Shown: positions 23,655 through 54,288 of the stretch, in pieces | Position numbering within the stretch: position 1 is the first letter of the stretch | Layout of the letters: each line of letters opens with the position of its first letter | Assembly: GCA_029975525.1 (NCBI GenBank) | Contig: JARKOX010000128.1 | Span: 1-64,000 of the forward strand | Length of the DNA stretch: 64,000 bases | Reading direction: 5' to 3' | DNA from: Prolixibacteraceae bacterium | GTDB lineage: Bacteria > Bacteroidota > Bacteroidia > Bacteroidales > Prolixibacteraceae | Translations under genes and position numbers: made by a program | The notes under the pieces: generated by a model | Database searches by the model: none | Told to the model about the DNA's origin: nothing | The model's input: the letters and a program-made list of their open reading frames with translations, nothing else

Positions 23655-25337
23655 TCAGTATGGTTTGCCGGTTCCCTGAATAACCCAGATTTTCGACATC
23701 ACATGGTCTTTGGACTGTCCGGCCGGGACAAAAACGGTCGCTTCGAGCCGGCCGACAGCCTCGTTGTAATTGACCATGTATTTTTCATCAGAATTGGGTA
23801 CCGGGTAGGCCATCCGGATGGGGATCGCCGGGCCGTAGGAGGCTACCGGGCCGGGTTTCAGATCGGGAAAGCCGGTGCGCCGCCAGTCAAACCACGGCTC
23901 AACGTTCAGCCATCCGGCAAGCCACTTTTGCTCCATAATCCGCTCCAGCTTATTGGCTGCTGCGGCATAATCCACGCCCGGATTGCTGTAATAGGCATTA
24001 AAACTGAAGCCGTTTTTGCCATCGATAATTCCCCACCGGGTCATTGAAGCTTCAATACCCTTCCGGTAGTGGCTTTCGGCTGTACCGGCTACCGAAAATC
24101 CGCCCCTGAAGGCTGCTTCGGCCAGCAGGAACTCCACTTCGCTGTAATCCATGATATCGAGCCGGAGAAGAGGGTCGGTATTCTCGCGGTACCGGCCGTG
24201 CATGTAGGAGATAAAAGGACTTCTTTCGGCATTGAAAGTTTGCGAATAAGAGCCTTTGTTGTAGTTCATCGCATCCTGCACCGCCAGTCCCATGGGAAGC
24301 CCCACATACAGCGAAGTATCGAGGCTGGTGTTGGTAGTGGGCAGATATTTGACGGTGTAGCTATCGCCAAACATGGTGGTGACGGTTTTGTCGGTTTCGG
24401 CGGCAATGTTCAGGTCCCACTTGATCGCAACGGGCATCACCCAGCGGTAGAGCCGGGGATCGCTGATCGATTGCAGCTTGTCGACCAGGGTTGCACAGGG
24501 TTTGGTGGCAAACGGAGGATTCGACGAGTTGAGTTTTCCGCCGGGCGCTGAGTTTTCGGGGGTGGTCCCGATGTACTTCACCAGGGCGTCATCGTCGACA
24601 GCGGTAAACGCCTTGCCAGCCGCGTCGTTAAAAATAGCGATGATATCAACCCCCAGGGCCGACATGTCGTTCTTTTTGTCATACAATCGCATGGCATAAC
24701 GCAGGCGGAGCGAGTTGCAGAATTTACGCCATTTGGCGGCGTTCCCGGCATACATCAGGTCGGCGGCAGGCGTCACTTTGTAAGTTGCAATGTCGGGTTG
24801 TGCCAGCAACGTTTCCGCTTTGTTGAGATCTTCCAAAATACCTTTGTAGATATATTTCTGCTCGTCATATTTCGGAAAGTAAAGCCCTTCTTTGGCTTTC
24901 AGGCTTTCAGCATATGGAATATCCCCGAAAACATCCGTGGTAACCCCAAAAACTGCGGCACGGAAAATCAGCGAAATGGCTTCAAAAAACGGATTTTTAC
25001 TTTCCAGCGCATAGCCGTTAATCATCTGGATGTTGCGTAAGACATCGTAAAAGCCGTCCCACGATCCTTTGTCCCAGTTGTAATGATTTATTTTCCAGGA
25101 GCTTTCGTTGGTACCCACCTGTACATACTGCATGGCCCCGGCAACCTGCGAATTGTAGTTGCCCAGCGATTTGTAGTAGAGGGCCGTTTTGGAAAGCACA
25201 TACGGCAATATGTAGTTGGAGGAGACTTTTACCGGATTGTTGGGATCTTCGTTCAGTTTATCCAGATCGAGACATGAAAAAAGCGGCATAAACAGCGTGA
25301 TGGCCAAGAGGATGACGCCTATTTTGATCGTTTTCAT
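23655..25337 (-). CDS. SusD/RagB-like nutrient-binding outer membrane lipoprotein
   Basis: 560 aa; lipobox-like FSCLDLDKLNEDPNNP, downstream of SusC. Confidence 0.9.
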   Translation of the reverse strand: MKTIKIGVILLAITLFMPLFSCLDLDKLNEDPNNPVKVSSNYILPYVLSKTALYYKSLGNYNSQVAGAMQYVQVGTNESSWKINHYNWDKGSWDGFYDVLRNIQMINGYALESKNPFFEAISLIFRAAVFGVTTDVFGDIPYAESLKAKEGLYFPKYDEQKYIYKGILEDLNKAETLLAQPDIATYKVTPAADLMYAGNAAKWRKFCNSLRLRYAMRLYDKKNDMSALGVDIIAIFNDAAGKAFTAVDDDALVKYIGTTPENSAPGGKLNSSNPPFATKPCATLVDKLQSISDPRLYRWVMPVAIKWDLNIAAETDKTVTTMFGDSYTVKYLPTTNTSLDTSLYVGLPMGLAVQDAMNYNKGSYSQTFNAERSPFISYMHGRYRENTDPLLRLDIMDYSEVEFLLAEAAFRGGFSVAGTAESHYRKGIEASMTRWGIIDGKNGFSFNAYYSNPGVDYAAAANKLERIMEQKWLAGWLNVEPWFDWRRTGFPDLKPGPVASYGPAIPIRMAYPVPNSDEKYMVNYNEAVGRLEATVFVPAGQSKDHVMSKIWVIQGTGKPY

Positions 25338-25349
25338 AATCGTAAATTT

Positions 25350-28300
25350 TTAAAATTCTAAACTAAGTTTTACACCCAAAGTTCCCGTCCATGGCATGGT
25401 ATTGTAATACTCGAGGCCGTTATTCCAGGCGCCGCCATTGGGTTTGAAAGCTCTTTCCGGGTCGATGTCCACGCCGGCCTTGGTCCATTCCAGCATGTTG
25501 GAAGCGACCAGGGAGATGCTGGAGTTCTGCAGGTGCAACTGCTGGTTGATCTTCCGGGGAAGATGGTAGGTCAGGGCAAGTTCCCTCAGTTTGACAAATG
25601 TGGCGTCGTAGGTGTTCCGGTAAGGAAATGGCCGGTTGGCGTAGCGGTTGGCATTGAAGGGGTCGAGCCATTTGGTTGTTGACCCGCCCAGATTTTCGAC
25701 ATAGGTTTTTACCCCATTCACCACCACTTCACGAACCCCGACATTGAAGCTGGCGTCCTGTTTACGTCCGGCGCCGCTCCCGGCAGGCCACGGAAAACCG
25801 CCGTATTCGGCCGTACGTCCGCCCACCCATTCTCCGAAGAAATATTGCGGGTTCTCTTTGATCTGTTCTTCAATACTCCGGTTGGGATCGTAGGCAATGC
25901 CCGAGAAGGTGTCTTCGCGCATCCCGTTATTTTGCATAAACATCATGGTTTTGGAGTAAAACTTCCCGCCCTGGTTCCAGTCGATATTGGCATAAACCGA
26001 AAAAGAGCCGTACCGGAAGGTGGGTTGAATCCCCAGGTTAAAATCGGGATTTGCATTTCCGATCTTCTTAATGTGATCGGGGTTGTTGTCGACCTGGTAC
26101 TGCCCGTTGGAATTGAGCAGCGGATAGCCGTAATAGGGCGACGATTTATCGGCAACGGTCAGCATGGGCTGGCAGTAGAAATCGCCGATCAGCCCTCCTT
26201 CGTAGGTGCGGAAATAGCATCCGTCGGATTCGGTCCACTGGGCATAGGCCATCCCCTCGGCCAGTTCAACCAGCCAGGTGCGGTTGCGGGTGAAATGAAG
26301 CCCCAGATCCCACCGGAATTTACCGGCAATCACCGGCGTGGTATTCAGGCTGACCTCCCATCCTTTACTTTCGATCAGGCCGGTGTTGATCTTTTTGCTG
26401 GTGGCTCCCGACTCAACAGGAACCGAAATGCTCAGCACCTGGTTTTCGTTCCGGACCCGGTACCAGGTTGCCTCCAGTCCGATCCTGTTTTTCACAAACC
26501 GTAAATCGGCGCCCACCTCCAGCGAAGTAGCCTTTTCGGGCACCAGATTGGGGTTTTGAAGCCCTCCGGCCATGTAAATTCTTTTTACCGATCCCCAGTC
26601 TGAGGCAATTGAAAAATTCTGACTGAGGCTGTAGGGACTGGTGTCGTTCCCCACCTGGGCAATCCCGGAACGCAGTTTGGCAAAGGTGATCCACTGCGGC
26701 AGCGCCACCATTTCGGAGAGCAGGATGCTCAGCGAAGCGGAGGGATAGAAATAGGAACGGTTTTCGGGCGGCAAAGTGCTCGACCAGTCGTTGCGGGCAG
26801 TCAGGTCGAGATAGAGCATGTCGTTGTAGCCCAGTGAGGCCATTCCGTAAACGCTGTAGATCGCTTTTTCAGACCAGTAGCTGCTGTAAACCACTGTTCC
26901 GGGTACGCCGTTGGAAATGGTGTACAAACCGGGGATCACCAGCTGTCCGGCCTGGTTGTAAATCGATTTGGCATAGGAATACATCCGGTTTCCGGCAATA
27001 AAAGCATTGAGATTCCATTTTTCATTCAAATCTTTCTGAAACGAAAGGTTGAGTTCCATGTTGGTCTCTTTCCGGCTGATGTCATACAGGGTGTACTGTC
27101 CGTTTGGCTCTGAATAGGAACTGAACGCCCTTTTGGATTCCCGGTTTTCGATATTGCCATCCCGCATGAAACGCCCCATGAGGGTGAGGTCATCGTTGAT
27201 TTTGTAATCAAACTGCACTTTGCTGGTCAGCCTTTCGCGTTTGAAGGCATTGGTATTTTCATAGGCCAGGAACCAGGCGTTATTCTGTTTCTCCTTGTAT
27301 TTCAGCTGCTGGAGCCCCTCCTGTCCTTTCACCCAGTAATCTTTCAGGTCGAGGATATTCACCTGCGCCCCGGTTTCGGTAAGGCTCCTGACGATATCGT
27401 TGCGGTCGTCGCCATTCACATTCGGCCGGTTGCCCGAACCCGATTCCGCCCAGTTGAACATGGCCGAAACCGAAAGTTTGCTGGTGAGATTGTAACCCGA
27501 ATTGAGTGAAATGGTGGAGCGGTTCAGATCAACATTCGGAATGATTCCCTGGTTTCGCATGTCGCCAACCGACAACCGGAAAAATCCTTTCTCGTAGTTG
27601 CCTTCCACACCAATATTATTGGTGGTGGTAAACCCGGTCTGAAAAAAATCCTTAAACCGGTTGGGGTAGGAAACCAGAGGAACTTTCTGGCCGTTCGAGT
27701 TCCACAACACCCACATCTCTCCCACATCGAGCTGGGCGCCCCAGGTTTCATTTTCAGGTTCTTCCAGTAAATGGGCCCCGGCTTTTCCGGAGCCAAATTT
27801 ATTTTGTACCGGAAAATAGTGATAGGGAATTTCAAAAACATTGGTTGTGCTGAAAGTTATCCCGATCCCTTTCCGGCCGGCAGCGCCCGACCGGGTGGTG
27901 ATCAGCACCACGCCGTTACCGGCGCGGGAACCGTACAGGGCGGCAGCGCTCGCCCCTTTCAGCACCGACACACTTTCAATGTCGTCGGGGTTGAGGTCGC
28001 TGATCTGGTTCCCGAAATCAGCCCCCTGGAAATAGTTGTTCAGCTGATTTTTAACCGGAATACCATCGATAACAAACAGGGGCTGGTTGTCATTGTTCAG
28101 CGAAGTGGCCCCGCGAATGATCATACTCACCGACGAACCGGAAGTACCATCCATCTGGTTGATTTTCACCCCGGAGACCTTACCCTGCAGTGCATTCAGT
28201 ACGTTCGTCTGGCTGGTCTCCGTCAGGTTGTCGCCTTTGACTTCCCCAACAGAATATCCCAGCGCTTTTTTGTCGCGCTTCAACCCCAGCGCCGTAACCA

Positions 28301-28619
28301 CCACTTCATCTACTCCAATGGTGGAAGCGCGCATCGTAACATCGATTGCGGACCTTCCGTCAACCGGAATTTCCTGCTTTTCCATTCCCACGAAAGAAAA
28401 AACCAGGATGTCTTTAAGGTTGTCGGCTGAGATGGAGTATTTCCCGTCAATATCAGTAATGGTACCTTTCGAGGTGCCCTTGACCAGGATACTAACTCCG
28501 GGAAGCAGTTCGCCCGAATTGCTTTTGACGACACCGCTTACCGGATGCTGTGCATACATGCGACCTGTCAACAGAACCAAAGTCCCCAACAGGAGCATCC
28601 GTAAAAACTTTTTTTTCAT
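25350..28619 (-). CDS. SusC/RagA-type TonB-linked outer membrane protein
   Basis: HPVSGVVKSNSGELLPGVSILVKGTSKGTITDIDGKYSI, SVSVLKGASAAALYGSRAGNGVVLITT; start at internal MKKKFLRML. Confidence 0.93.
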   Translation of the reverse strand: MKKKFLRMLLLGTLVLLTGRMYAQHPVSGVVKSNSGELLPGVSILVKGTSKGTITDIDGKYSISADNLKDILVFSFVGMEKQEIPVDGRSAIDVTMRASTIGVDEVVVTALGLKRDKKALGYSVGEVKGDNLTETSQTNVLNALQGKVSGVKINQMDGTSGSSVSMIIRGATSLNNDNQPLFVIDGIPVKNQLNNYFQGADFGNQISDLNPDDIESVSVLKGASAAALYGSRAGNGVVLITTRSGAAGRKGIGITFSTTNVFEIPYHYFPVQNKFGSGKAGAHLLEEPENETWGAQLDVGEMWVLWNSNGQKVPLVSYPNRFKDFFQTGFTTTNNIGVEGNYEKGFFRLSVGDMRNQGIIPNVDLNRSTISLNSGYNLTSKLSVSAMFNWAESGSGNRPNVNGDDRNDIVRSLTETGAQVNILDLKDYWVKGQEGLQQLKYKEKQNNAWFLAYENTNAFKRERLTSKVQFDYKINDDLTLMGRFMRDGNIENRESKRAFSSYSEPNGQYTLYDISRKETNMELNLSFQKDLNEKWNLNAFIAGNRMYSYAKSIYNQAGQLVIPGLYTISNGVPGTVVYSSYWSEKAIYSVYGMASLGYNDMLYLDLTARNDWSSTLPPENRSYFYPSASLSILLSEMVALPQWITFAKLRSGIAQVGNDTSPYSLSQNFSIASDWGSVKRIYMAGGLQNPNLVPEKATSLEVGADLRFVKNRIGLEATWYRVRNENQVLSISVPVESGATSKKINTGLIESKGWEVSLNTTPVIAGKFRWDLGLHFTRNRTWLVELAEGMAYAQWTESDGCYFRTYEGGLIGDFYCQPMLTVADKSSPYYGYPLLNSNGQYQVDNNPDHIKKIGNANPDFNLGIQPTFRYGSFSVYANIDWNQGGKFYSKTMMFMQNNGMREDTFSGIAYDPNRSIEEQIKENPQYFFGEWVGGRTAEYGGFPWPAGSGAGRKQDASFNVGVREVVVNGVKTYVENLGGSTTKWLDPFNANRYANRPFPYRNTYDATFVKLRELALTYHLPRKINQQLHLQNSSISLVASNMLEWTKAGVDIDPERAFKPNGGAWNNGLEYYNTMPWTGTLGVKLSLEF

Positions 28620-28901
28620 AATTAGAGATTTTTGGTTAATTAATTCTGAAAAGCTTTGAGCCAAACGCCTGTGTAATTCTTATACAAAGTTTATCTAATA
28701 ATCAAGAACTTACTAATAGAATTTTATTGCGATTGCATTACATTTTGACCTGTTTGTTTTATAAAGGAAAAATTCATCGTAACATGTGGTCAAAAAACCA
28801 TTACCTCAGATCAATATTTTTTATAAAAATCCCTTCTTTTAAAAAAGATAAAAAAGTTTCTTATCTGTCCGGATCGCCAAACCCCTGATGGGGCCTGTCT
28901 T

Positions 28902-30011
28902 CTATTTTCCGGAGAGACTTTGATAAACAGCCAGCAGAAAATCGCGGTTGTCGGCCGTCAGATAATCCATCTCCCCTCCCATCCGGCTGAAAGTTTTACA
29001 GTAGCGCAGGTAATAGGCCGGATTGTCCATCGGCGGCTCGCCCGCTTTCTGCCAGTCCCAGTCGGCCTGGGCCAAATCGACCACCAGCATGTAGTGGTGA
29101 TCGATGTGCCTCCCGTGCTGGAGGTGCAGGTTTTGCGCCATCGACAGCGCTTTTTCAAAAATCATGGGCGACATCACCGCCGATCCGATCGACAGGTAAA
29201 CGCCATTTTCGAGGTTGTACACACTCTGGGCAAAGCTGAGGAAATCGTTCAGGGCGACACGTCCCAGGGCAGCGCCGTGGTTCATCGGGTGGTTGTAGAT
29301 GATGTCGTGTCCGATCATCGGGTGACCGGTAAACGGGATTCCCAGCTCGAAAGCACGCGCCTGTGCCGAATATTTTTTGTAGGGATGCGGGATCGACCGG
29401 AAATCGGGTTTCAGGTTAAACTTCCGGATCACTTCGGCCAGGTCGATGGCTGCGGCAGCCCGGGCGTGGTCGGTTTGCATTTTTTCTGCCGCCTCGTGGT
29501 ACAAAGCCGAAACTTCGGGGATATGAAGGCCTTCCTGTGCAATCATTTTCCCCACCGATTCGCCGTATCCCAGCCCCTCGTAAGCTCCCACCACCAGCGC
29601 CAGATTGATGTTGAACCCCGTGTGGTCCCAGATTCCAAACTGTCCCAGGTTGACATTTTCGCGCACATCTTCGCTCGATTTTCCCTGAAAAGCAAACTCC
29701 CAGTCGTGAATAATGCCGGCGCCATTGGTGGCCAGATGGGTCACCCAGCCCTCTTCCAGGAGGGCAATCAACGTGGGCGACATCCCGTTTTTGATGGTGT
29801 GGGCGCCAAATGTGAGCATTACCGGGCGTTCTTCCCGGCGGGCCTGCCTGATCCGCGCAACCGCTTTTTCGATCAGCTTCCACCCGGCTTCCGAAATATT
29901 TTCGGGAAGGCGCGTTAACGGTACGTGGTCCCTTTCAATGCAAATCTTGTTCTTCCGGTCATTCAGTTTTTTGATATCCAGCAGGCTTCTATCCAGTTTT
30001 AAATAAGGCAT
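28902..30011 (-). CDS. Uncharacterised protein, possibly deoxyhypusine-synthase-like fold
   Basis: 369 aa; VMLTFGAHTIKNGMSPTLIALLEEGWVTHLATNGAGIIHDWE resembles the DHS-like NAD-binding region; assignment by eye. Confidence 0.5.
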   Translation of the reverse strand: MPYLKLDRSLLDIKKLNDRKNKICIERDHVPLTRLPENISEAGWKLIEKAVARIRQARREERPVMLTFGAHTIKNGMSPTLIALLEEGWVTHLATNGAGIIHDWEFAFQGKSSEDVRENVNLGQFGIWDHTGFNINLALVVGAYEGLGYGESVGKMIAQEGLHIPEVSALYHEAAEKMQTDHARAAAAIDLAEVIRKFNLKPDFRSIPHPYKKYSAQARAFELGIPFTGHPMIGHDIIYNHPMNHGAALGRVALNDFLSFAQSVYNLENGVYLSIGSAVMSPMIFEKALSMAQNLHLQHGRHIDHHYMLVVDLAQADWDWQKAGEPPMDNPAYYLRYCKTFSRMGGEMDYLTADNRDFLLAVYQSLSGK

Positions 30012-30018
30012 GGCAGGG

Positions 30019-31920
30019 TTATTTAATATTCAACAAGCTGAGCAGCTGCTCCATTTGCGAAAAGTCGGGAATAATCACATCGGCTCCGGCTTTGATCAGG
30101 CGGGTGCGTTTATTTTCATTCAGGCTGAACCGTTTCACCTCATTGCTGGCAATTCCGATTGAAAGTCCGCCCCTTTTGCGGGTTTCGCGTATTTCAACAG
30201 GTCCGTCGCCAAATGTGACCAGCTTGCCGAATGATGATTCGCCAATCGCACTTAAAATGCGGTCGAGGACAATTTTTTTGGCTTCTTTGTTCACATCGCC
30301 CACGGCGCCGTAGATCCGGCCTTCAAAAAGATGGGCATAACCGAGCGCTTCCGCCTCTTTTTTTACATCTTCCTCGTCGGTGCCGCTGGCCAGGTAAAGT
30401 TTTACACCGGCACGGTAAAGCGCCTGGAGGAACGGAACCGCATTTTTAATGGTAAAATCTTCCAGCGACAGTTCCCCTTTCCAGTATTTGTCTTCGCGGA
30501 TGCTCACCATTTGCAGCAACTCGTCGTTGTAAATTTTTTTGTATCCAAATTCGTCGAGCATCTCCTCTTTGGGGATGCAGCTAAATTCGCGGATGATCTC
30601 CAGCAGGCCCTTCATCTGGACCAGCGTCTGGATTCCGGTGGTTTTGTCAATGTATTCATTCACCCGGCCGAGCACTTTCTGGTAGAGCGCTTCGTCGGCA
30701 ACGTGGTATTTCTTTCCCAGCACGGCTTTCACCATCATCGGTCCCATGATCAGCTCCCAGCCTTCGCGCAGGGTGGAGATGGTTCCGTCGTGGTCAAAAA
30801 TGGCATGTTCGATCTGTAGTTTGCCGCTCCAGGGGTTGACCACTTCAATTTCCGTGTCGGGCAGGCAGGAGGCGTGGCGGATATCTTCGGCCAATTCGGG
30901 GGCGTAAACGTAGTCTGGGTCACTGCCAATGGCCAGGATCTCTTCGGGGGTGGCTGTTCCGGTCTGAAAGAGTTTCTGGATGGTTACGCCGGCCACAAAC
31001 GTCCCGATCCGGGCGGCCGTTCCCATGTCGTATCCGGCAGCCAGAGCTGTTGCCGCGCCGGCCAGGTAGCTGTCGCCCGCCCCCACCGTGTCGACCCGCG
31101 AAATGATCATCAGCCCGGGAATATCCGAAATCCCCTTTTCGCTGATAGCGAGCGACCCTTTTTTGCCGCGTGTGATAAACAACGGCTTCTGAAACCGGCG
31201 GTACAACTCTTCGGCGCAGGCGACCACTTCCGAATAGAGCACCACGTCGTCGGGCGCTTTGTCCAACCCGCACAGGCGGGCAGCCTCGGTATCGTTCATC
31301 TTGCGGATGGCGCCCGCAAAAAAATCGTTGTAATGGCGGCTGTCAACGATGAACATTTTCTCCGGAAAACGTTGAATTACCCCCAGCAATTCCTCTCTGA
31401 AATAGCGGGTGTGAATCCCCGACAGCACCTGCTGGTTGATCAGGATCACATCGACCTCCGGAATCTCCCGCACCAGGTTGGCAATAAGCCGGTCAGCGGT
31501 GTTTTCGGAGAGGAGGTTGTAATTGCCGAAATCAATGCGGCTCAGCTCGGCGTCGTCAAGATAAGGTTTTGAGTAGGTGTGCGTACACCACTCCTCTTCC
31601 TGCACCAGCAGGTTATTGGTTTTGATGCCCGTCTGGTTCATGATCCGCACCATTTCGGTACCAAACGGGTCGGTCCCGATCACGCCAAACGCCCGGATAT
31701 CCCCGACTCCCATAGCAGCCAGGTTGTTGGTCACATTCCCGGCGCCTCCCAGCGAGTAGCGTTGCTGGCGGACAGGCCGGGTGGGCAGGTTGGTTTCTAT
31801 TGAAATTTCACTCATCGCTTCATCAATAAACCAATAGGAATCGAGACAAAAATCGCCGACTACCGCAATCTTCACCTGCTGAATAGCCTCCAGGATTTTT
31901 TTGAGTTCTTCTTTTTTCAC
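30019..31920 (-). CDS. PfkB (HldE-like) sugar kinase fused to HAD-superfamily phosphatase
   Basis: 633 aa; N-terminal GDFCLDSYWF, SLGGAGNVTNNLAAMG, DTVGAGDSYLAG; C-terminal HAIFDHDGTISTL, YLASGTDEEDV, VTFGDGPVEI (HAD motifs). Confidence 0.85.
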   Translation of the reverse strand: MKKEELKKILEAIQQVKIAVVGDFCLDSYWFIDEAMSEISIETNLPTRPVRQQRYSLGGAGNVTNNLAAMGVGDIRAFGVIGTDPFGTEMVRIMNQTGIKTNNLLVQEEEWCTHTYSKPYLDDAELSRIDFGNYNLLSENTADRLIANLVREIPEVDVILINQQVLSGIHTRYFREELLGVIQRFPEKMFIVDSRHYNDFFAGAIRKMNDTEAARLCGLDKAPDDVVLYSEVVACAEELYRRFQKPLFITRGKKGSLAISEKGISDIPGLMIISRVDTVGAGDSYLAGAATALAAGYDMGTAARIGTFVAGVTIQKLFQTGTATPEEILAIGSDPDYVYAPELAEDIRHASCLPDTEIEVVNPWSGKLQIEHAIFDHDGTISTLREGWELIMGPMMVKAVLGKKYHVADEALYQKVLGRVNEYIDKTTGIQTLVQMKGLLEIIREFSCIPKEEMLDEFGYKKIYNDELLQMVSIREDKYWKGELSLEDFTIKNAVPFLQALYRAGVKLYLASGTDEEDVKKEAEALGYAHLFEGRIYGAVGDVNKEAKKIVLDRILSAIGESSFGKLVTFGDGPVEIRETRKRGGLSIGIASNEVKRFSLNENKRTRLIKAGADVIIPDFSQMEQLLSLLNIK

Positions 31921-32011
31921 ACCTGTAATTTTTAAAAGTTAATCAATGTCAATCTTCTGTCTGTTGAATCTTTTTCAGGCCGGAAACGGGCCGGCAGCCC
32001 GGGAAGTCCGG

Positions 32012-33163
32012 TTAGTTTTTACGCACATAGAGCGATACCCAAAGGATGTAGAGCATGCAGGCGCCCACAACCGACAGGCTGGCAACCGGCCCCACGGTGG
32101 TGCTCACCAGTCCCATCACCAGGGGGATGACAGCGCCACCGGATACGGCCATAATGAGCAGCCCGGAAATTTCATTGGCCCGTTCGGGCATTTTCTCCAG
32201 GGCCAGCGAGAAAATGAGCGGAAACATATTACCGGCGCCCAGTCCGATGAGGAAAATGGCTGCAAACGCAACACCATTCGACGGGGCGAAAAAGATCCCC
32301 ACAATGCCCAGCAGCGCCAGCAAAACGATCAGCAAAAGGAAGAGGCGCGGCTGGATCACATTCAGGATAATAGCTCCCAGAAAGCGGGAGATGGTTTCAC
32401 CGGCAAAGAAAAAGCTGATTCCGATCGCGGCCGTTTCCAGCGGCACGCCATATTTGGCAATCAGTACATTGGCAATATTGGTATTGATCGCCACTTCGGC
32501 CCCCACAATCAGAAAAATCGACAAGGCCATCAGGGCAACAAACCGATTTTTCAGCAAACCGAAACACGAGGCAAAGGAAGCCGGTTTCCGGTCGGGTTTG
32601 GTCTCCGGAATAGGAGTCAACGAAAGCCACAAAGCCGCCAGCAGCGAGGTGATTCCGTAAACGGCAAACACCAGCTTCCAGTTTCCCAGGCGGGCAGCCA
32701 TAAAAGTGGCAAGGAGGGGACCGGAAAAGGAGATAATCGCTTTGACAAACTGCGAGGTGCTCATAAAACTGGCCAGTTTGTCGGACGGGGTGACATCCTG
32801 CAGCAGCGGGTTGGCCGAAACCTGGATAACGGTATTCCCGATTCCCAGCAAAATAAACGAGGCAAACATCATGGCAAACGAGTAGTGAACGAACGGAAGC
32901 CCCAGGCCGATCGCCTGAATGAGCATGCCCACATTCAGCATGTTACGCTTGCCAAATTTATCCTGTAAAACGCCTGCCGGAACCGACAGGACAAAAAACC
33001 ACAGCAGCACCATCATGGGTAAAAACTGGGCGATAAAATCGGTCAGGGCAAAATCTTGTTTGACATATCCGGTGGCCACACCGATGATGTCCACAAATCC
33101 CATCACGATAAATGAAAAAAGTACCGGAAATATCTTCCGTAGATTGATTTTTGGTTGGTTCAT
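32012..33163 (-). CDS. MFS transporter (sugar porter, FucP-like)
   Basis: 383 aa, ~12 hydrophobic helices; FVDIIGVATGYVKQDF, GNTVIQVSANPLLQDV. Confidence 0.8.
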   Translation of the reverse strand: MNQPKINLRKIFPVLFSFIVMGFVDIIGVATGYVKQDFALTDFIAQFLPMMVLLWFFVLSVPAGVLQDKFGKRNMLNVGMLIQAIGLGLPFVHYSFAMMFASFILLGIGNTVIQVSANPLLQDVTPSDKLASFMSTSQFVKAIISFSGPLLATFMAARLGNWKLVFAVYGITSLLAALWLSLTPIPETKPDRKPASFASCFGLLKNRFVALMALSIFLIVGAEVAINTNIANVLIAKYGVPLETAAIGISFFFAGETISRFLGAIILNVIQPRLFLLLIVLLALLGIVGIFFAPSNGVAFAAIFLIGLGAGNMFPLIFSLALEKMPERANEISGLLIMAVSGGAVIPLVMGLVSTTVGPVASLSVVGACMLYILWVSLYVRKN

Positions 33164-33223
33164 ACGTATAGATTTTTTTTAGTAATTATCTATTTTTCAG
33201 TTTTTTGCAAGGATTGTTTTAAC

Positions 33224-35791
33224 CTATTCCTCGAGCAGGTTAACCTCTTTGGTTGCTCCTGATTTGGGGTTGATCCGCAACGTTTTGATCTCGAAAGGCG
33301 TAAAGCGGCCCCTCCACTGGCGACCGTTAAATCCAACGTGCAGGGTTGCCGTACCGTCGCGGCCGGCCAGCTCCACACAACGGACGATGAGATCGCTCCC
33401 GCTTTCGGCCTGTTTGACAGCCGTCACAATCACATTGGGCGAATCGACCGAAAGGAAAGAGCCGGATTTGGGCAGCGTTCCGCCATGAATGCCCTGGTAA
33501 ATGGCCAGCGGCGGGGCGCTGAACGCTTCGGCAATCCGCAGAATACCGCTCTCCTGCCAGCTTCCGCGGTGCGGCACCACCATCATCCGGAAGGTTTGGA
33601 TTCCCTGGTCCATCCAGAGGTATTCATTTTTCATATCGAGAACTTTCGGATTGTGGTGGGCAAAAACCGCTGCCCGGGCTACCGAAATCCGCAGGTCGTT
33701 CCCCTGCACGCTGTAACCGTATTTGGCGTCGTTGATAACGGTCAGTCCGAAAACCCCGCTGGTGCGCCGGCCGGTAACATCGATCCAGCGTTGCCCCGGA
33801 TCTTCCTTTCCGTTGGCTTCGCGAACGATAAACCCGTAAGGAGTTTCGTAGGTCGGCACCGGCGCCTCCACATCAACCGGGAAGGAAAATTTCAACATTT
33901 TCAAACGTTCGTGCCAGTCGAGCATCACCCTGGCCTCCAGGTTGCGCGAACCGGCATACAGGGTCCAGTCGATGGTCAGCGTCGAGGCGCCGTAGGTGGT
34001 CATTACCCGCATGGTGGCCCGGAGCGGTCCGTTTTCCAGTATCTTCAGGGTGGCATTTCCGAAAGCGCCAATCTCTTTTGAAAAACGTTGGATGTCGTGG
34101 CTCCAGGTGTCGCTCGGATCATCAATCACAATAGCCCGGCAACCGCTGTTTCCTCCGGCAAAAACCTCTTCTCCGGTCGTTTTGTCTGCCATCCCGAACG
34201 AACCGTCGTAAGAAAAAGTAACTCGGACCAGTTCGTTCTCCAGGCTGTTTTCAGCAGCAGTGGCCGTGACCTGGTGGTGGTAATCGCCACCGTCCCAAAG
34301 CCTGAGCTGCCGGTATCCCATCGCCGGAATTGCCGTTTCCACAACCAGCTTGCGGCGGGTACCGGTTTCCGACGATCCACCGGTCCACTGATGCGGCAGC
34401 GGATCCCCGTTTTCATCATCCACCCGCGAAGTTTTATGGTACTGCGTTCCCCAGTTAAAATCATATTCCACCTGAGCCCGTATATCCCAGGCATGCGGGT
34501 TGAACACCACCAGGTATTGCGAATCGGGATCTTCGGCGGCAATCTGCCACTCCAGCTTCTGAATGGCCAGGTAGGCGGCCTGGTGGGCCACATCCAGGGC
34601 AAACCCGTAACCTTCGCGGGCGGTTTGCGAATGGTCAAAAAGGGAGGTGCCGGCCAGGCTGTCGTGGAACTGGAGAAAGAGCACCCGCTGCCAGGCCGCA
34701 GTCAGCTCCTGCCGGGGATAATGGGCGCCCCACGCCAGGACTCCAAGGGCCGCGACCTTTTCGGCCGTAACCAGCGCAGTTTCTGCCTGCCGGTTTCCTT
34801 TTTTGATCTCCCACTCAGCCGTGTAACATCCTACGGCATGGTGCTGAAGATCGTCTTTGACTACTTCGAGCGACAGGTTTTTATCAGCCCTGATCTCTTC
34901 AAAATAGCGTTCGGGAGTACTGTAGAATACAACCGGAGCGCCTTTTTCTGCCTTTAATGCTTCGATTGACCGGATATTTTCCCGAGTAGCTCCTCCGCCA
35001 TGGTCACCTGCTCCGAAATAGTACATAAAACTCTTCACGGGCTGGTTCTGTACCTGTGCCAAAACCCGCTCCAGGCGATTTCGCACCACGCCGCTGTCGT
35101 TGTAGCTCTGCTGGATGCGGTAAGTCAACACGCGGGTTCCATCGGCGCCTTCCCACCAGAAGAGATCGGCAGGCAGCTCTTTTTCGTGGGGAGCGGGCCG
35201 CATGAAGATGTAGCTCTCCATCCCCTGTTTTTTGAGGATCTGTGGCAAAGTTCCAGCGTGTCCGAAAGAGTCGGGATTGAAAGCGATGAGAGCTTTCCGC
35301 CCAAACAGTTTCTGAAAGGTGAGCTGTCCGTACAACCCCTGTCTGACCAGCGCTTCGCCGCCGGGGATGTTTACGTCGGGCTCCACCCACCAGCCGCCCA
35401 TGAGGCACCAGCGCCCCTCTTCCACCCGTTGGCGGATCTTCTTCATCAGGCCGGGATCATTTTGAGCCACCCAGTGATAAAACTGCGCCGAGCTGCTGAT
35501 AAAACAGAAGTCCGGGGTTTCGTTCATGCGGTCGAGTGCCGACTGAAAAGTGCTGTGTACAATTGAAACCCCCTCGGTCCACGGCCAGAGCCACACCGGG
35601 TCGATATGCGCGTGGCCGATCATGTGAAACCGGAAAGCGGAAGCGTTGGCCGGCCAGGGCGTGGCCTGCCTGAGATCACCGGCCAGCAGTTTCGGGACCG
35701 GGGTGACAGCTAAAAAAGCCGCGCCGGCAGCAGTCTGGCGGATAAAGGTTCGTCTGGAGATCCGGGGGCTGAAATTGGTTTTACGGTTCAT
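33224..35791 (-). CDS. GH38-type alpha-mannosidase with twin-arginine-like signal
   Basis: 855 aa; GHAHIDPVWLWPWTEG, GGWWVEPDVNIPGGEALVRQ, FNPDSFGHAGTLPQIL; N-terminus SRRTFIRQTAAGAAFLAVTP. Confidence 0.92.
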   Translation of the reverse strand: MNRKTNFSPRISRRTFIRQTAAGAAFLAVTPVPKLLAGDLRQATPWPANASAFRFHMIGHAHIDPVWLWPWTEGVSIVHSTFQSALDRMNETPDFCFISSSAQFYHWVAQNDPGLMKKIRQRVEEGRWCLMGGWWVEPDVNIPGGEALVRQGLYGQLTFQKLFGRKALIAFNPDSFGHAGTLPQILKKQGMESYIFMRPAPHEKELPADLFWWEGADGTRVLTYRIQQSYNDSGVVRNRLERVLAQVQNQPVKSFMYYFGAGDHGGGATRENIRSIEALKAEKGAPVVFYSTPERYFEEIRADKNLSLEVVKDDLQHHAVGCYTAEWEIKKGNRQAETALVTAEKVAALGVLAWGAHYPRQELTAAWQRVLFLQFHDSLAGTSLFDHSQTAREGYGFALDVAHQAAYLAIQKLEWQIAAEDPDSQYLVVFNPHAWDIRAQVEYDFNWGTQYHKTSRVDDENGDPLPHQWTGGSSETGTRRKLVVETAIPAMGYRQLRLWDGGDYHHQVTATAAENSLENELVRVTFSYDGSFGMADKTTGEEVFAGGNSGCRAIVIDDPSDTWSHDIQRFSKEIGAFGNATLKILENGPLRATMRVMTTYGASTLTIDWTLYAGSRNLEARVMLDWHERLKMLKFSFPVDVEAPVPTYETPYGFIVREANGKEDPGQRWIDVTGRRTSGVFGLTVINDAKYGYSVQGNDLRISVARAAVFAHHNPKVLDMKNEYLWMDQGIQTFRMMVVPHRGSWQESGILRIAEAFSAPPLAIYQGIHGGTLPKSGSFLSVDSPNVIVTAVKQAESGSDLIVRCVELAGRDGTATLHVGFNGRQWRGRFTPFEIKTLRINPKSGATKEVNLLEE

Positions 35792-35816
35792 AACTGATGG
35801 TTTAGTCGGTTGGTTT

Positions 35817-36473
35817 TTAGGAGGAATGGAGATCGCTGTTTCCGAAGAAATGGGCTTCCACCATCATACAAAGCGCATGATAAACCGGAAGCTGCAACTC
35901 CTGAACCCGCGCTGTTCTTTTCTCCGGAACATTAATCAGGAGGTCGCAGCGGTTTTTCATCTGCCCGCCTGTTTCGCCGGTGAGGCCAATTACCGTGAGA
36001 CCAAAAGCTTTGGCGGCAATGATGGCATCCACCACATTTTGGGAATTACCGGAAGTGCTGAGGGCAATTAAAATATCCCCGGCTTTTCCGTAGCCAGCCA
36101 CCTGCTGGGCAAAGACGAGGCTGGGATCGGTATCGTTGGCCACCGCCGTAACCAGCGCGCTGTGGGCCGCCAGGGAAATGGCCGGCAACCCCTGCTGCAA
36201 TTTCTCCGCCAGGTAGCTGCCCCGTTCGCCGCCGGATTTTATCAACGCCGCTTTCAACGGCTGGCTCAACGGCCGGTGGTGTTCGAATCCTTTCATCAGT
36301 TCACCCACGAGGTGGTCTGCGTCGGAACAGCTCCCGCCGTTGCCGCAAACCAACACTTTTCCTCCCTGTTCATAACAGCGGATCAGGCAACCGGCGGCTT
36401 CCAGCATGACTGCTTCCAGAGGGGCCAGCTGCGGAAATCTGGCTGACAATTCATTTAAAATTGCTGTTTTCAT
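35817..36473 (-). CDS. SIS-domain sugar-phosphate isomerase (GmhA-like)
   Basis: VLVCGNGGSCSDADHLVGELMKGF, LSTSGNSQNVVDAI; start set at internal MKTAILNEL, after the ROK stop. Confidence 0.85.
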   Translation of the reverse strand: MKTAILNELSARFPQLAPLEAVMLEAAGCLIRCYEQGGKVLVCGNGGSCSDADHLVGELMKGFEHHRPLSQPLKAALIKSGGERGSYLAEKLQQGLPAISLAAHSALVTAVANDTDPSLVFAQQVAGYGKAGDILIALSTSGNSQNVVDAIIAAKAFGLTVIGLTGETGGQMKNRCDLLINVPEKRTARVQELQLPVYHALCMMVEAHFFGNSDLHSS

Positions 36474-36483
36474 GTCCGGCGTA

Positions 36484-37473
36484 TTAAAATTTGTTTTCAT
36501 AGACCGCCACGCACAATGCGGCATAATCGCCAATCGAATCGCCCAGCTCGGCGGGTTTGATCTGACACACCTCCCGCGCTGCCGGAATCGCTTCCTGCCG
36601 GAGCACCTCTTCCACAACGGGTTGAAACAATTCCACATTCCGCGCATAAATACTGCCGATGACGATACATTCCGGGTTGAGGATATCGATCAGAACGGAG
36701 AGTCCCCTCCCAAGATATCCGGCTGAAATCCGGATAATTTCGAGGGCTGTCGAGTCGCCGGCACGGGCAGCCAGCGCCACGGCTTTGGCGTCAATTTCCC
36801 CGATTTTATCGGGTGAAGGGCAAAAATCAACCGGCTGGTTCTTTTGCCATTTTGCGGTTATCACCGACCGGGCGAGCTGGGCAATGCCGCCGCCGCTGCA
36901 AAAACCTTCGAACGAGCCGGCTTTTCCAAATCCGACCGGTCCGTCGGGGGCCAGCCGGATATGGCCCACTTCGCCGCCCAGGTCGTTGGTTCCGCTGTAG
37001 AGTTTTCCGCCCAGAATCAGTCCCGAGCCCATTCCGGTGCCGAAAGTGAGAAAGACCATGTTGCGGGTCCCTCTTCCGGCGCCCATCATCCACTCGGCCA
37101 GCGCGCAGGCGTTGGCGTCGTTCTGAAGCGCGGTTTCCACGCCATATTTTTGGCTGAAAATCTCCACAACCGGCACCCCGTCCCACCCCGGAAGGTTAGG
37201 CGGCGAATAGATCATCCCCCGGGCCGAATCGAGCGGTCCGCCACAACTGATGCCAATCCGCATCAGTTTGCTGTTGCCGAACTCTGCCAGCAGCCTGCCG
37301 ATATGCAGGTGAAATTCCGCCAGAATAGCCTGGTATCCCCTTTCAACACGGGTTTCAAAAAACACTTTTCTCCAGATGTGAAAGGACGCATCGCCAATTA
37401 CCACCGCACATTTGGTTCCGCCAATGTCCAGTCCAAGATATATTTCCCGGGGAAGCTCTTTTGCTTTGTTCAT
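36484..37473 (-). CDS. ROK family protein (sugar kinase-like)
   Basis: YLGLDIGGTKCAVVIGD, NDANACALAEW, FGTGMGSGLILGG, GGEVGHI; alternative start at 37491. Confidence 0.88.
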   Translation of the reverse strand: MNKAKELPREIYLGLDIGGTKCAVVIGDASFHIWRKVFFETRVERGYQAILAEFHLHIGRLLAEFGNSKLMRIGISCGGPLDSARGMIYSPPNLPGWDGVPVVEIFSQKYGVETALQNDANACALAEWMMGAGRGTRNMVFLTFGTGMGSGLILGGKLYSGTNDLGGEVGHIRLAPDGPVGFGKAGSFEGFCSGGGIAQLARSVITAKWQKNQPVDFCPSPDKIGEIDAKAVALAARAGDSTALEIIRISAGYLGRGLSVLIDILNPECIVIGSIYARNVELFQPVVEEVLRQEAIPAAREVCQIKPAELGDSIGDYAALCVAVYENKF

Positions 37474-37494
37474 ATTAGTTGGTTTATCCATTCA

Positions 37495-37508
37495 CTAAAT
37501 CGATTTAG
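37495..37508. promoter_or_regulatory. Candidate LacI-family operator (perfect 14-bp palindrome)
   Basis: CTAAATCGATTTAG with central CG, between the LacI and ROK genes. Confidence 0.6.
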
Positions 37509-37527
37509 CCTTGTGAGCAAAAAAAAA

Positions 37528-38559
37528 TTAAGCTCCGCACGATTTCCGCACGATGAACTCGGTTTTCAGTTTTATCTGCTGAAGTTTTGGTGCATTCTTG
37601 CGGGAAGGGTTGATTTCATTGAGCAGGACCTGAACCGCTTTTTTCCCGATTTCTGAAAGCGGCTGTCCGATAACGGTCACCGGGCTGACGCAAATTTTGT
37701 AGGCATCCACATTGTCGAAACTGACGACGGCCACATCCTCCGGAATCCGGAGCCCCAGCGCCGAAATACATTCAATTCCCATCACCCCGATTTTGCTGGT
37801 GGAAAAGAGAATGGCATCGGCTTTCCGGTCATTTTGGTCTCCGACCAGTTCGAGAATCGCCTTGTTGACATCGGTATTGTCGTGCGAAAAAGGTAAAATT
37901 TTGATCAGCTTTTCGTCGACCTGCAGCCCGTTATCGAGGAGGGCCTTTTGGTACCCCTCCGTACGCTCTTTCATGTTGACCAAGTCGAGGTTCAGCGTGA
38001 TATTGGCGATTTTTTTACGGCCCCGTGCAAGCAGATGGGTAGTGGCCCGGTAAGCGGCGTCCAGATTATCGACCACAATATAGCTGCACTCGATATCGGG
38101 AAAATAGCGATCGATCAGCACCACCGGGAGATGGGCCCGGAGGAGGGCGCGGATCTGCTCTTCGCTGTCGATCGTGGGCGAAATAATATACCCGTCCACC
38201 TGGCTCTGCTGCAGCATGGCAATCTGCTGTTTCGATTTTTCAGGGTTTTCATCAGAGCTGCAAAAGATGATCCGGTAACCGTAGCGCGCCGCTTCCTTCT
38301 CAATTTCGCGGCCCAGCTTCCCAAAAAACGGATTGGCAATATCGGCAATTATCAACCCGATGGTTTTGGTTTTGCCGGTACGCAACCCCTGGGCAATCCG
38401 GTTGGGCTGGTAATTCATCTCTTTGGCTGTTTCCAGCACTTTCCGACAAACTTCATCGCTGATCCGGAACTCTTTGCCCCGCCCGTTAAGAACAAACGAA
38501 ACCAGGGTTTTGGAAACCCCGAGCTGCTTCGCAATGTCATTAAGAGAGGTTTTTTTCAT
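37528..38559 (-). CDS. LacI family transcriptional regulator
   Basis: MKKTSLNDIAKQLGVSKTLVSFVLNGRGKEFRIS HTH; TIGLIIADIANPFFGKL. Confidence 0.94.
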   Translation of the reverse strand: MKKTSLNDIAKQLGVSKTLVSFVLNGRGKEFRISDEVCRKVLETAKEMNYQPNRIAQGLRTGKTKTIGLIIADIANPFFGKLGREIEKEAARYGYRIIFCSSDENPEKSKQQIAMLQQSQVDGYIISPTIDSEEQIRALLRAHLPVVLIDRYFPDIECSYIVVDNLDAAYRATTHLLARGRKKIANITLNLDLVNMKERTEGYQKALLDNGLQVDEKLIKILPFSHDNTDVNKAILELVGDQNDRKADAILFSTSKIGVMGIECISALGLRIPEDVAVVSFDNVDAYKICVSPVTVIGQPLSEIGKKAVQVLLNEINPSRKNAPKLQQIKLKTEFIVRKSCGA

Positions 38560-38858
38560 GTCTGTAGAACTGATTTTTTGTCTGGATCGATACATGGGTT
38601 TACCCAGCTTTTTCAAACAGGTTTCCATGTCATTCAAAATTAAGCGATCCGGCCGGGTTGCTTAAATAATAAATTGCCCTAAACTGATAACATTTTAACG
38701 GAAGTTTGCTTTGAATGCAACGTGATGAAATGGGGCATGCGTTTCACAACACCTGCTGACAGGTAAAAACCGCTATCCGACAGGATAAAAGTTTTTGACC
38801 GGCCTGCCTCGGAAAGGTTTAGAAAAGAGAAGAAAAAAAAGCTCGATTATCCTGGTGG

Positions 38859-39710: not shown

Positions 39711-39855
39711 ACCTCTCCAGTTTAATCAGACAAAAATTTTAACCGAAAAATATAAATATATAAGCGAAATTCAAAGATCAAGTCAAATTTCAATGTAAAA
39801 CGAACAATATACAACAAAAAAGATGCGGTCTATTGATTTTTCTTTGTTGTACCCG

Positions 39856-39869
39856 TTAAATCGGTTTAG
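39856..39869. promoter_or_regulatory. Candidate LacI-type operator
   Basis: TTAAATCGGTTTAG, 12/14 to the 37495 palindrome, 50 nt upstream of the aldolase start. Confidence 0.45.
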
Positions 39870-39918
39870 CAAACCGGTTGAGAACGGCATAAACAGACAC
39901 TTATCAATCAAAAATAGT

Positions 39919-40833
39919 ATGAGAGCTTTATTTCACGGAATTATTCCACCAGTGGTTACTCCATTGCTCAGTAACGATGCACTTGATGAAGCGGGCCTCA
40001 GCAGGCTGATCGAACACATGCTTGCGGGCGGTGTTCACGGATTATTTCTGCTCGGCACGACCGGCGAGGCGACCAGTCTGAGTTACAAATTACGCGAGAA
40101 ATTTGTAAAGCTGGCCTGCAACCAGATCGGGAAAAGGGTACCGGTAATAGTAGGGATTACCGACACCTGCATTGAAGATTCGCTGAACATGGCCTCCTGC
40201 TACAAAGAGGCCGGCGCTGATGCCGTGGTTATTGCCCCCCCCTATTACATCCCCATTTCGCAGAGCGAAATGATGCAGTACCTGGAAGGCCTGGTACCGC
40301 AGTTGCCCCTCCCCTTTTTCCTTTACAACATGCCCGGCTACACCAAGCTGCACATGTCGGTTGAAACCGTCAACTTCGCCCGGGAGCTGGGGGCCCTCGG
40401 AATCAAAGACAGTTCGGGCGACCTGATGTATTTGTATACGCTGATTGATAAATTCAAAGACACTCCGGAATTTTCCATCTTCACGGGCACCGAGATCTTC
40501 ATTCCCGAGACCATTATGCACGGCGGCCACGGCGCGGTTGCCGGCGGCGCCAATATGTTCCCCCGCCTGTTTGTCGATTACTATGAAGCCGCCGTCCGTA
40601 AAGACTTCGAGCAGATCAGCCTGCTGCGCCAGATGGTGATGCAGATCTACAACACCGTTTACAATGTCGGCAAACACACGTCGAAGTACACCCTGGGCAC
40701 CAAGTGCGCCCTCTCGGTGATGGAAATCTGCAACGACTACGCCGCCCTGCCATTGCGCAAATTCGACGATGAAAAACGGGCCCGGATGCAACAATATATC
40801 CAGGAACTGAAAGAGAAATTGGTCTATATTTAA
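39919..40833 (+). CDS. DapA/NanA/KDG-aldolase superfamily protein
   Basis: GIIPPVVTPLL, LGTTGEATSLS, FFLYNMPGYTKLHMS, GIKDSSGD; start at internal MRALFHG. Confidence 0.88.
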   Translation: MRALFHGIIPPVVTPLLSNDALDEAGLSRLIEHMLAGGVHGLFLLGTTGEATSLSYKLREKFVKLACNQIGKRVPVIVGITDTCIEDSLNMASCYKEAGADAVVIAPPYYIPISQSEMMQYLEGLVPQLPLPFFLYNMPGYTKLHMSVETVNFARELGALGIKDSSGDLMYLYTLIDKFKDTPEFSIFTGTEIFIPETIMHGGHGAVAGGANMFPRLFVDYYEAAVRKDFEQISLLRQMVMQIYNTVYNVGKHTSKYTLGTKCALSVMEICNDYAALPLRKFDDEKRARMQQYIQELKEKLVYI

Positions 40834-40849
40834 TGTTCTCCAACAAAAA

Positions 40850-40890
40850 CCGGAACAGCCGGCACCACTTTCGGCTTTTGTTCCGGTTAT
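40850..40890 (+). terminator. Terminator-like hairpin after aldolase
   Basis: AACCGGAACA...TGTTCCGGTT. Confidence 0.55.
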
Positions 40891-41082
40891 TGCTATTTTG
40901 CTGACACCGGGAAATGTTTTTTCCGGCGCGTGACGGTCCAAAAGTCTTTTTTGCCGCAGCCAGCGAATTTTTTCGCAACTCCGGCTATCTTTAAGGCTGA
41001 GGAGTGCCATGAAAAGCTTCAGGCAGGAATTTCCCTGCCTGCTTCCTTCAACAAAATATTCAATTAACGATCAACTAATTCT

Positions 41083-42168
41083 ATGAAAGCATTTACCACC
41101 CTTCTGCTGATAACCCTTTCAGCCATCCTTTTGCAGGCCCAACCCTACCGGGGCGACCAGGCTATTGTAAAATCCGAATTCATTTACCGATCCGAAGATG
41201 TCAAATTTCCAAGTTGCCATGCTTCAACAATTGCCGAAACCCAGGAGGGACTCCTGGCTGCCTGGTTTGGAGGAACTGCCGAAAAGGATCCGGACGTGGG
41301 CATTTGGATCAGCCGGTTCTCAAACGGAAAATGGTCGGTTCCCACGGAAGTAGCCAACGGCGTTCAAAATGAAAGTTTAAGGTATCCGACCTGGAATCCG
41401 GTGCTTTTTAACGCCGGCAAAGAGATCATCCTGTTCTACAAAGTGGGGCCCAACTGTTCCGACTGGTGGGGCGAATACATTACCTCGTCCGACAACGGAC
41501 ACACCTGGAGCAAGCCGGTGCGCCTGCCCGACGATATCTGGGGCCCTATCAAAAACAAACCGGTGTTGCTGCCCAACGGCGAACTGCTCTGCCCGTCGAG
41601 TACCGAAAAAACAGGCTGGCAGGTTCACCTGGAAAGCACCGCCGACTGGGGCAAAACATGGAAAAGAACCCCTTCGATAAATGACGGGAAAGAGGTCGGG
41701 GCCATCCAGCCTACCGTCCTGATACATTCGGGCAACAAACTCCAGATTTTATGCCGGAGCACCAATAAAATGATCCTCTCGTCCTGGTCCAGCGACCTGG
41801 GCAAAACCTGGAGCAAACTGGAGCCGATCCAGCTCCCCAATCCCAACTCCGGCATCGACGGTGTTGCCCTGCAGGATGGCCGTCATGCCTTGGTTTACAA
41901 CCACGTCAAACCAGCCGAAAAATGGGGCGACCGTAACATTTTGAACCTGGCCCTTTCCAGCAACGGAAAAAAGTGGAAAGCTGCCCTCCTGCTTGAAAAT
42001 GACCCGGATGCCGACACCGAATACTCCTACCCGGCGATTATCCAGGCCAGCAACGGGCTGCTCCACATCACCTACACCTGGAACCGGAAGCTGATCAAAC
42101 ACGTGGTGGTGGATCCCTCCAAACTGACGACCAGGCCGATGGTGAAAGGTTCGTGGCCGACGGAATAG
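41083..42168 (+). CDS. Secreted BNR/Asp-box beta-propeller (sialidase-like fold) protein
   Basis: 361 aa; signal peptide; CHASTIAETQEGLLAAWFGGTAEKDPDVGIW, SSDNGHTWSKP, TADWGKTWKR Asp boxes. Confidence 0.82.
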   Translation: MKAFTTLLLITLSAILLQAQPYRGDQAIVKSEFIYRSEDVKFPSCHASTIAETQEGLLAAWFGGTAEKDPDVGIWISRFSNGKWSVPTEVANGVQNESLRYPTWNPVLFNAGKEIILFYKVGPNCSDWWGEYITSSDNGHTWSKPVRLPDDIWGPIKNKPVLLPNGELLCPSSTEKTGWQVHLESTADWGKTWKRTPSINDGKEVGAIQPTVLIHSGNKLQILCRSTNKMILSSWSSDLGKTWSKLEPIQLPNPNSGIDGVALQDGRHALVYNHVKPAEKWGDRNILNLALSSNGKKWKAALLLENDPDADTEYSYPAIIQASNGLLHITYTWNRKLIKHVVVDPSKLTTRPMVKGSWPTE

Positions 42169-42237
42169 TCCGCGCTTTTTTTGGGACCGGTTAGCTGCGA
42201 GGACCGGATGACTGTTTTGACTTTTAATTCCAAAAAA

Positions 42238-44211: not shown

Positions 44212-44284
44212 AGAGGACGCTTCCGTCAAAATCACGGAACAGCTCCGTCAACAAACAGTGATTTGACCAGTAAAAATCAACCAT

Positions 44285-54272: not shown

Positions 54273-54288
54273 ATTTTACGATTCAACA

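Follow-up and report, generated by a model that had tools for sequence, protein, structure and literature searches.

The nearest described relatives of the genes considered here belong to the heptose-phosphate branch of ADP-heptose synthesis (GmhA, HldE/HldA, GmhB and HldD) and to loci for mannoside use. In Geobacter sulfurreducens, hldE (GSU2085) and gmhA (GSU2087) lie on either side of GSU2086, and transposon insertions in the three genes caused defects on electrodes of -3.1 (GSU2085), -3.2 (GSU2086) and -3.7 (GSU2087), with polar effects possible (PMC5585712). The Caldithrix mannoside locus carries GH38, GH92, MFS and ROK genes, and the portion of its description considered here mentions no PfkB-HAD, GmhA-like SIS or GSU2086-type protein (PMC4071793). 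Here, we analysed a 64,000-nucleotide stretch of DNA, hereafter the window, from a Prolixibacteraceae bacterium (assembly GCA_029975525.1, contig JARKOX010000128.1, positions 1 to 64,000), focusing on a minus-strand cassette at 28902-38559 which, together with its relatives, shares features with both systems. Comparison across genomes supports three points: the module is conserved, it is paralogous to the heptose branch and it is linked to alpha-mannosidases. A connection with alpha-mannoside catabolism is probable. More specifically, and with a probability of about 0.45, we read the cassette as an operon under LacI control that would act on an alpha-mannosidic glycan and have as its core a paralogue of the heptose branch retuned to a mannose-type sugar.

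Open reading frame (ORF) calling agrees with the earlier note in placing seven genes with short gaps, all in one direction, within the cassette. From the first gene to the last, they are:

37528-38559, minus strand: LacI-family regulator, first gene of the cassette (PF00356/PF00532)
36484-37491, minus strand: ROK-family sugar kinase, glucokinase/N-acetylmannosamine (ManNAc)-kinase-like (PF00480)
35817-36473, minus strand: SIS isomerase, GmhA-like (SIS_2, PF13580)
33224-35791, minus strand: GH38 alpha-mannosidase-family enzyme (GH38 N, middle and C domains)
32012-33163, minus strand: MFS transporter, gluP/fucP-like (MFS_1)
30019-31920, minus strand: PfkB kinase-HAD phosphatase fusion in a single ORF (PF00294 and PF00702)
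28902-30011, minus strand: GSU2086-family protein of 369 aa (NF052581), with a deoxyhypusine-synthase/AgrE-like fold

Families were assigned by Pfam and NCBIfam profile searches with curated cut-offs. The last protein, which had been regarded as an orphan resembling deoxyhypusine synthase, proved to be a member of the NCBIfam "GSU2086 family" NF052581 (331.9 bits against a cut-off of 250, residues 5-364), with at least 510 candidate stretches encoding relatives in a scan of a genome collection, and with ties to heptose genes elsewhere; the best 80 stretches were kept. Below, L numbers denote loci and G numbers genomes. It represents the longer form of the family, here termed DHSL-A (deoxyhypusine synthase-like), which exceeds its sister form DHSL-B by ~28-30 residues and is tied to PfkB-HAD.

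The gene set proposed in the earlier note is indeed conserved. A HAD homologue adjoins DHSL in 41 of the 80 loci, always on the same strand and mostly with a gap below 60 bp, and these loci span at least eight phyla (Bacteroidota, Lentisphaerota, Verrucomicrobiota, Planctomycetota, Spirochaetota, Myxococcota, KSB1 and Sumerlaeota). For high-GC loci, tblastn was used, as greedy ORF calling is unreliable there. Among 61 related genomes, the family of the 369-aa protein occurs in 10, and PfkB-HAD in exactly those 10, although the two genes are not adjacent in two of them (G012 and G032). Matches to PfkB-HAD at E <= 1e-60 were rare when 299 genomes from across the phylum were sampled: four genomes had one, in one case to the kinase only. 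Since the sampled genomes are related, such counts do not represent independent events; the association exceeds chance, given the identical set of 10 genomes and a gene order that recurs across phyla. The tightest linkage is that of PfkB-HAD with DHSL rather than that of ROK with GH38. Planctomycetota have unfused HAD and PfkB genes, one on each side of DHSL, which makes the fusion in the window a Rosetta-stone link. Many of the phyla with the module are known solely from metagenomes; among cultured relatives, Mariniphaga anaerophila DSM 26910 and Draconibacterium aestuarii have the cassette.

Like the heptose-phosphate branch, the cassette combines a SIS isomerase, a PfkB kinase of the type acting on the anomeric position and a phosphatase. 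The isomerase scores 151.6 bits against the GmhA equivalog model TIGR00441, below its cut-off of 209.45, and its H54, E58, Q191 and H199 match His61, Glu65, Gln172 and His180 of E. coli GmhA, which we take to be catalytic/metal positions, with equal spacing. Unlike E. coli GmhA and the GmhA-like proteins encoded next to DHSL-B, it carries a conserved, cassette-specific insertion of ~26 aa (residues ~69-94). This insertion type is present at full length in 9 of the 10 cassette genomes, compared to 2 of the 51 other related genomes. It was also encountered in L192 (7794-9195, minus strand), where it accompanies a beta-phosphoglucomutase (beta-PGM)-like HAD and is divergent from genes for a glycyl-radical enzyme and the corresponding activase; that genome has neither PfkB-HAD nor the GSU2086 family.

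The kinase domain scores above the cut-off for PF00294 (101.8 bits) and retains the GAGD catalytic motif, identifying it as a PfkB sugar kinase. Against the HldA/HldE model TIGR02198 it reaches 133.8 bits, below the equivalog cut-off of 345, and in a kinase tree it forms a clade of its own beside HldA/HldE, split from HldA at 100/99 support. The lid motif differs (T..Y.KP...E..RIDFG versus TT.KTRVIA..Q...R.D in the HldA type), and the kinase falls in none of the phosphofructokinase families. The heptose-phosphate logic ascribed to the cassette in the earlier note therefore stands for the isomerase and the kinase, which sit in the GmhA and HldA/HldE neighbourhoods, and does not extend to a GmhB-type phosphatase. 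The HAD domain matches no GmhB model, and its AlphaFold2 model (predicted local distance difference test score, pLDDT, 90) resembles HADs of the Gph/beta-PGM type with a helical cap; the structures closest to it in fold are those of phosphoglycolate phosphatases, of beta-PGM and of a mannitol-1-phosphate phosphatase domain. The cassette further departs from the heptose branch in having no adenylyltransferase or HldD, while possessing secreted glycosidases, sugar carriers and LacI.

The GSU2086-family protein extends the parallel. DHSL-B, the sister form, adjoins GmhA-like or GT9 heptosyltransferase-like genes (L155-L159, L115 and L117-L120), and in Geobacter the family member stands between hldE and gmhA. 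All 20 DHSL-B genomes tested (seven from the phylum of G074 and 13 Bacteroidota) have a TIGR02198 kinase, in 19 above the cut-off and in the remaining one at 341.7 against 345, and none of the 20 has HldD (TIGR02197) above the cut-off; judging from this distribution, DHSL-B might replace HldD. Taken together, the relationships of the isomerase, the kinase and DHSL-B make the core look like a second copy of the heptose-phosphate branch that has been retuned. As for DHSL-A, its likeness to deoxyhypusine synthase is at the level of the fold. The match to PF01916 is weak (20.5 bits, under the gathering cut-off of 27). A profile alignment extends over residues 59-273 only, so that the invariant K339 is placed roughly at the site of human Lys329 by colinearity alone. 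The best PDB folds for its AlphaFold2 model (pLDDT 89) are deoxyhypusine synthases and AgrE/ArgZ, with a profile match to ArgZ/AgrE of ~1e-4, and because of these resemblances DHSL-A probably binds nicotinamide adenine dinucleotide (NAD). Our search found no literature that connects heptose either to deoxyhypusine synthase or to PfkB/GH38.

The module has a catabolic setting, as the earlier note had proposed: a LacI regulator, a Tat-type GH38, a transporter and a SusCD pair, to which relatives add GH92 and a mannose 2-epimerase. The GH38 enzyme has the family domains, a conserved nucleophile Asp region (NPDSFGHAG, aligned with LPDSFGYTG) and a twin-arginine-like signal read from the sequence (SRRTFIRQ), and is a putative alpha-mannosidase. 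In relatives, the cassette runs LacI-ROK-SIS-(GH38)-(MFS)-(GH92)-PfkB-HAD-DHSL, with LacI orthologues (61-76% identical) at its head; in many cases an AGE-family epimerase comes next, together with an SSS symporter. This epimerase aligns at 700 bits over 420 aa with PDB 8h1k, presumably the D-mannose 2-epimerase of Runella slithyformis; it adjoins DHSL in 18 loci and, where DHSL is missing, stands beside PfkB-HAD (L123 and L124) or a lone PfkB (L154), although the genome of the window has no match to it at E <= 1e-90. Moreover, L063 and L065 have GH38 close to DHSL, a lone HAD is found beside GH38 in Hydrogenedentota (L127), PfkB-HAD beside GH92 in L150, and PfkB/HAD with GH38 in L160. Owing to these neighbourhoods, alpha-mannosidases and the mannose epimerase qualify as repeated partners of the module, and their recurrence points to a mannose-type sugar. 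A 3-keto-disaccharide hydrolase (PF06439) was also seen near the cassette in 11 of the 80 loci, for example in L016 (7080-9182, minus strand), where a GFO/IDH/MocA oxidoreductase accompanies it.

If the cassette is a retuned heptose branch acting on a mannose-type sugar, its steps might be ordered as follows. The secreted GH38, joined by GH92 in relatives, would free the sugar, which the MFS carrier (SSS in relatives) would bring in and ROK would convert to a terminal phosphate ester; the GmhA-like SIS would interconvert the aldose-phosphate and ketose-phosphate. The HldA-like kinase would then add a phosphate at the anomeric position, and the HAD fused to it would take off one phosphate, giving a sugar-1-phosphate on which the deoxyhypusine synthase-fold protein would perform an NAD-dependent step. 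In genomes with the mannose 2-epimerase, mannose could in parallel be drained to glucose. This exact scheme is rather doubtful, with substrate, direction and the HAD and DHSL reactions being its conjectural parts. A broader idea, to which we give somewhat less than even odds, is that of a previously undescribed sugar-phosphate pathway found in many phyla. Its members, namely a GmhA paralogue, an HldA-like kinase fused to a beta-PGM-type HAD and a new NAD-dependent enzyme of the deoxyhypusine synthase fold, would act together on a manno-type sugar, the last of them catalysing a sugar reaction new to that fold. Were this so, the widespread GSU2086 family would gain a testable role as deoxyhypusine synthase-fold enzymes acting on sugars, and Bacteroidota and other phyla would have copied the LPS (lipopolysaccharide) heptose-phosphate branch and adapted the copy to the use of alpha-mannosides. 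The same question bears on the Geobacter gene that stands, so far unexplained, between hldE and gmhA.

Several observations weigh against the operon for an alpha-mannosidic glycan. The linkage to GH38 and GH92 is strongest in Bacteroidota, and in most of the Hydrogenedentota, Kiritimatiellota and Lentisphaerota loci among the 80 no glycosidase was found beside DHSL. A LacI operator common to the regions upstream of LacI and SusC was looked for and not found. If the sugar were merely mannose, ROK together with an ordinary isomerase would be enough, and PfkB-HAD and DHSL would be unaccounted for. Finally, the Calditrichota operon in L160 (LacI-x-SSS-DHDPS-rfaE_II-PfkB-HAD-GH38-BNR-SIS) includes an rfaE_II gene (201.2 bits against a cut-off of 181.5), which suits synthesis more than breakdown.

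Some of these genes could alternatively serve heptose scavenging, whereby GH38/GH92 would free a manno-configured heptose, for instance from the LPS of dead Gram-negative cells, ROK would produce heptose-7-phosphate, SIS would feed it into the pentose phosphate pathway as sedoheptulose-7-phosphate, and the C6 epimer and similar side forms would fall to PfkB-HAD and DHSL. The isomerase and kinase are indeed nearest to GmhA and HldA, DHSL-B sits next to GmhA-like and GT9 heptosyltransferase-like genes, and the lack of any HldD above the cut-off in all 20 DHSL-B genomes tested is compatible with DHSL-B acting at C6 epimerisation; in addition, BNR_2 and a DHDPS-like aldolase, which could serve the release and cleavage of 3-deoxy-D-manno-octulosonic acid (Kdo), are found both within the operon of L160 and next to the cassette of the window. 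This explanation is nonetheless unlikely: the AGE-family partner is orthologous to a D-mannose/glucose 2-epimerase, the SIS insertion and the kinase lid motif are unlike those of the heptose enzymes, and we know of no heptosidase activity in GH38 or GH92. Apparent mentions of "mannoheptose" in one paper actually concern mannoheptaose.

Synthesis of a nucleotide sugar has a similarly low probability. Here, SIS, PfkB, HAD and an adenylyltransferase would produce a manno-type sugar in activated form, destined for a surface glycan; DHSL would modify that sugar, and the glycosidases would give the precursor or be merely co-regulated. In favour of such a role, rfaE_II joins the cassette PfkB, HAD and SIS in the Calditrichota operon, and the sister kinase of Hydrogenedentota is fused to an rfaE_II adenylyltransferase domain; the genome of the window also has rfaE_II elsewhere, and the similar electrode defects of GSU2086, hldE and gmhA fit as well (PMC5585712). 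On the other hand, a profile search upheld the claim that the cassette of the window contains no nucleotidyltransferase, the heptose-1-phosphate adenylyltransferase (TIGR02199) being absent from it and encoded on another contig of the genome. Four cassette genomes (G012, G020, G032 and G058, 97-100% complete) have no rfaE_II above the cut-off, and LacI, MFS/SSS, SusCD and the secreted GH38/GH92 indicate catabolism.

Still less probable is ordinary use of mannose or N-glycans, with GH38, MFS and ROK acting on mannose, SIS as a phosphomannose isomerase, PfkB as a 6-phosphofructokinase, and HAD and DHSL as accessory housekeeping proteins: GH38, ROK and MFS are usual in mannose loci, as in the GH38-GH92-MFS-ROK set described for Caldithrix (PMC4071793), and the window contains a GH95 gene and sialidase-like BNR_2 genes, but the PfkB-HAD/DHSL link is tighter than that of ROK and GH38, and the kinase lies outside the phosphofructokinase families. 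LPS heptose synthesis, already discounted in the earlier note, is rejected as the function in this organism because the HldA-like kinase, rfaE_II and HldD of this genome lie outside the cassette (contigs C157, C126 and C80), and because the four genomes just named keep the module with neither rfaE_II nor HldD above the cut-off and with no second HldA-like kinase.

With respect to boundaries and finer annotation, the longest version of the LacI ORF begins at 38637, and the ATG at 38559 is the better match to the family start; the closest PDB relatives of ROK are glucokinases and ManNAc kinases. Two further genes follow the cassette on the same strand:

25350-28664, minus strand: SusC-like outer-membrane transporter, paired with SusD, 237 bp downstream of the cassette
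23655-25337, minus strand: SusD-like lipoprotein (SusD-like_2)

The operon may extend into this pair, and SusD-SusC follows the cassette in L019 as well. Scans for promoters and terminators gave results near shuffle expectation. By gene order, the same-strand SusC/SusD, carbohydrate-active enzymes and regulator make up a SusCD-type polysaccharide utilisation locus. Downstream of SusCD, on the same strand, lies a fucosidase-type GH95 gene (16706-19027), which may share the glycan target of the cassette.

Upstream of the cassette and divergent from it, the plus strand at 39823-46426 encodes a DHDPS-family aldolase, a BNR_2 protein, an FG-GAP protein and a BNR_2-YdjC fusion. Homologues of these genes adjoin the PfkB module in other loci (BNR in L160, DHDPS in L161 and BNR_2 in L150); YdjC is a separate gene in L150 (38% identity) and also occurs near the module in L055. 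We rejected DHDPS, BNR_2 and YdjC as core members, L150, L160 and L161 being the sole loci where homologues of more than 50% identity accompany the module, other than YdjC in L055. Farther along, at 52584-57720 on the minus strand, there is a second SusD-like gene, the upstream neighbour of which, an ORF of 1143 aa, resembles its SusC; purple-acid-phosphatase-like genes lie close by, at 46760-48547 and 58046-59302.

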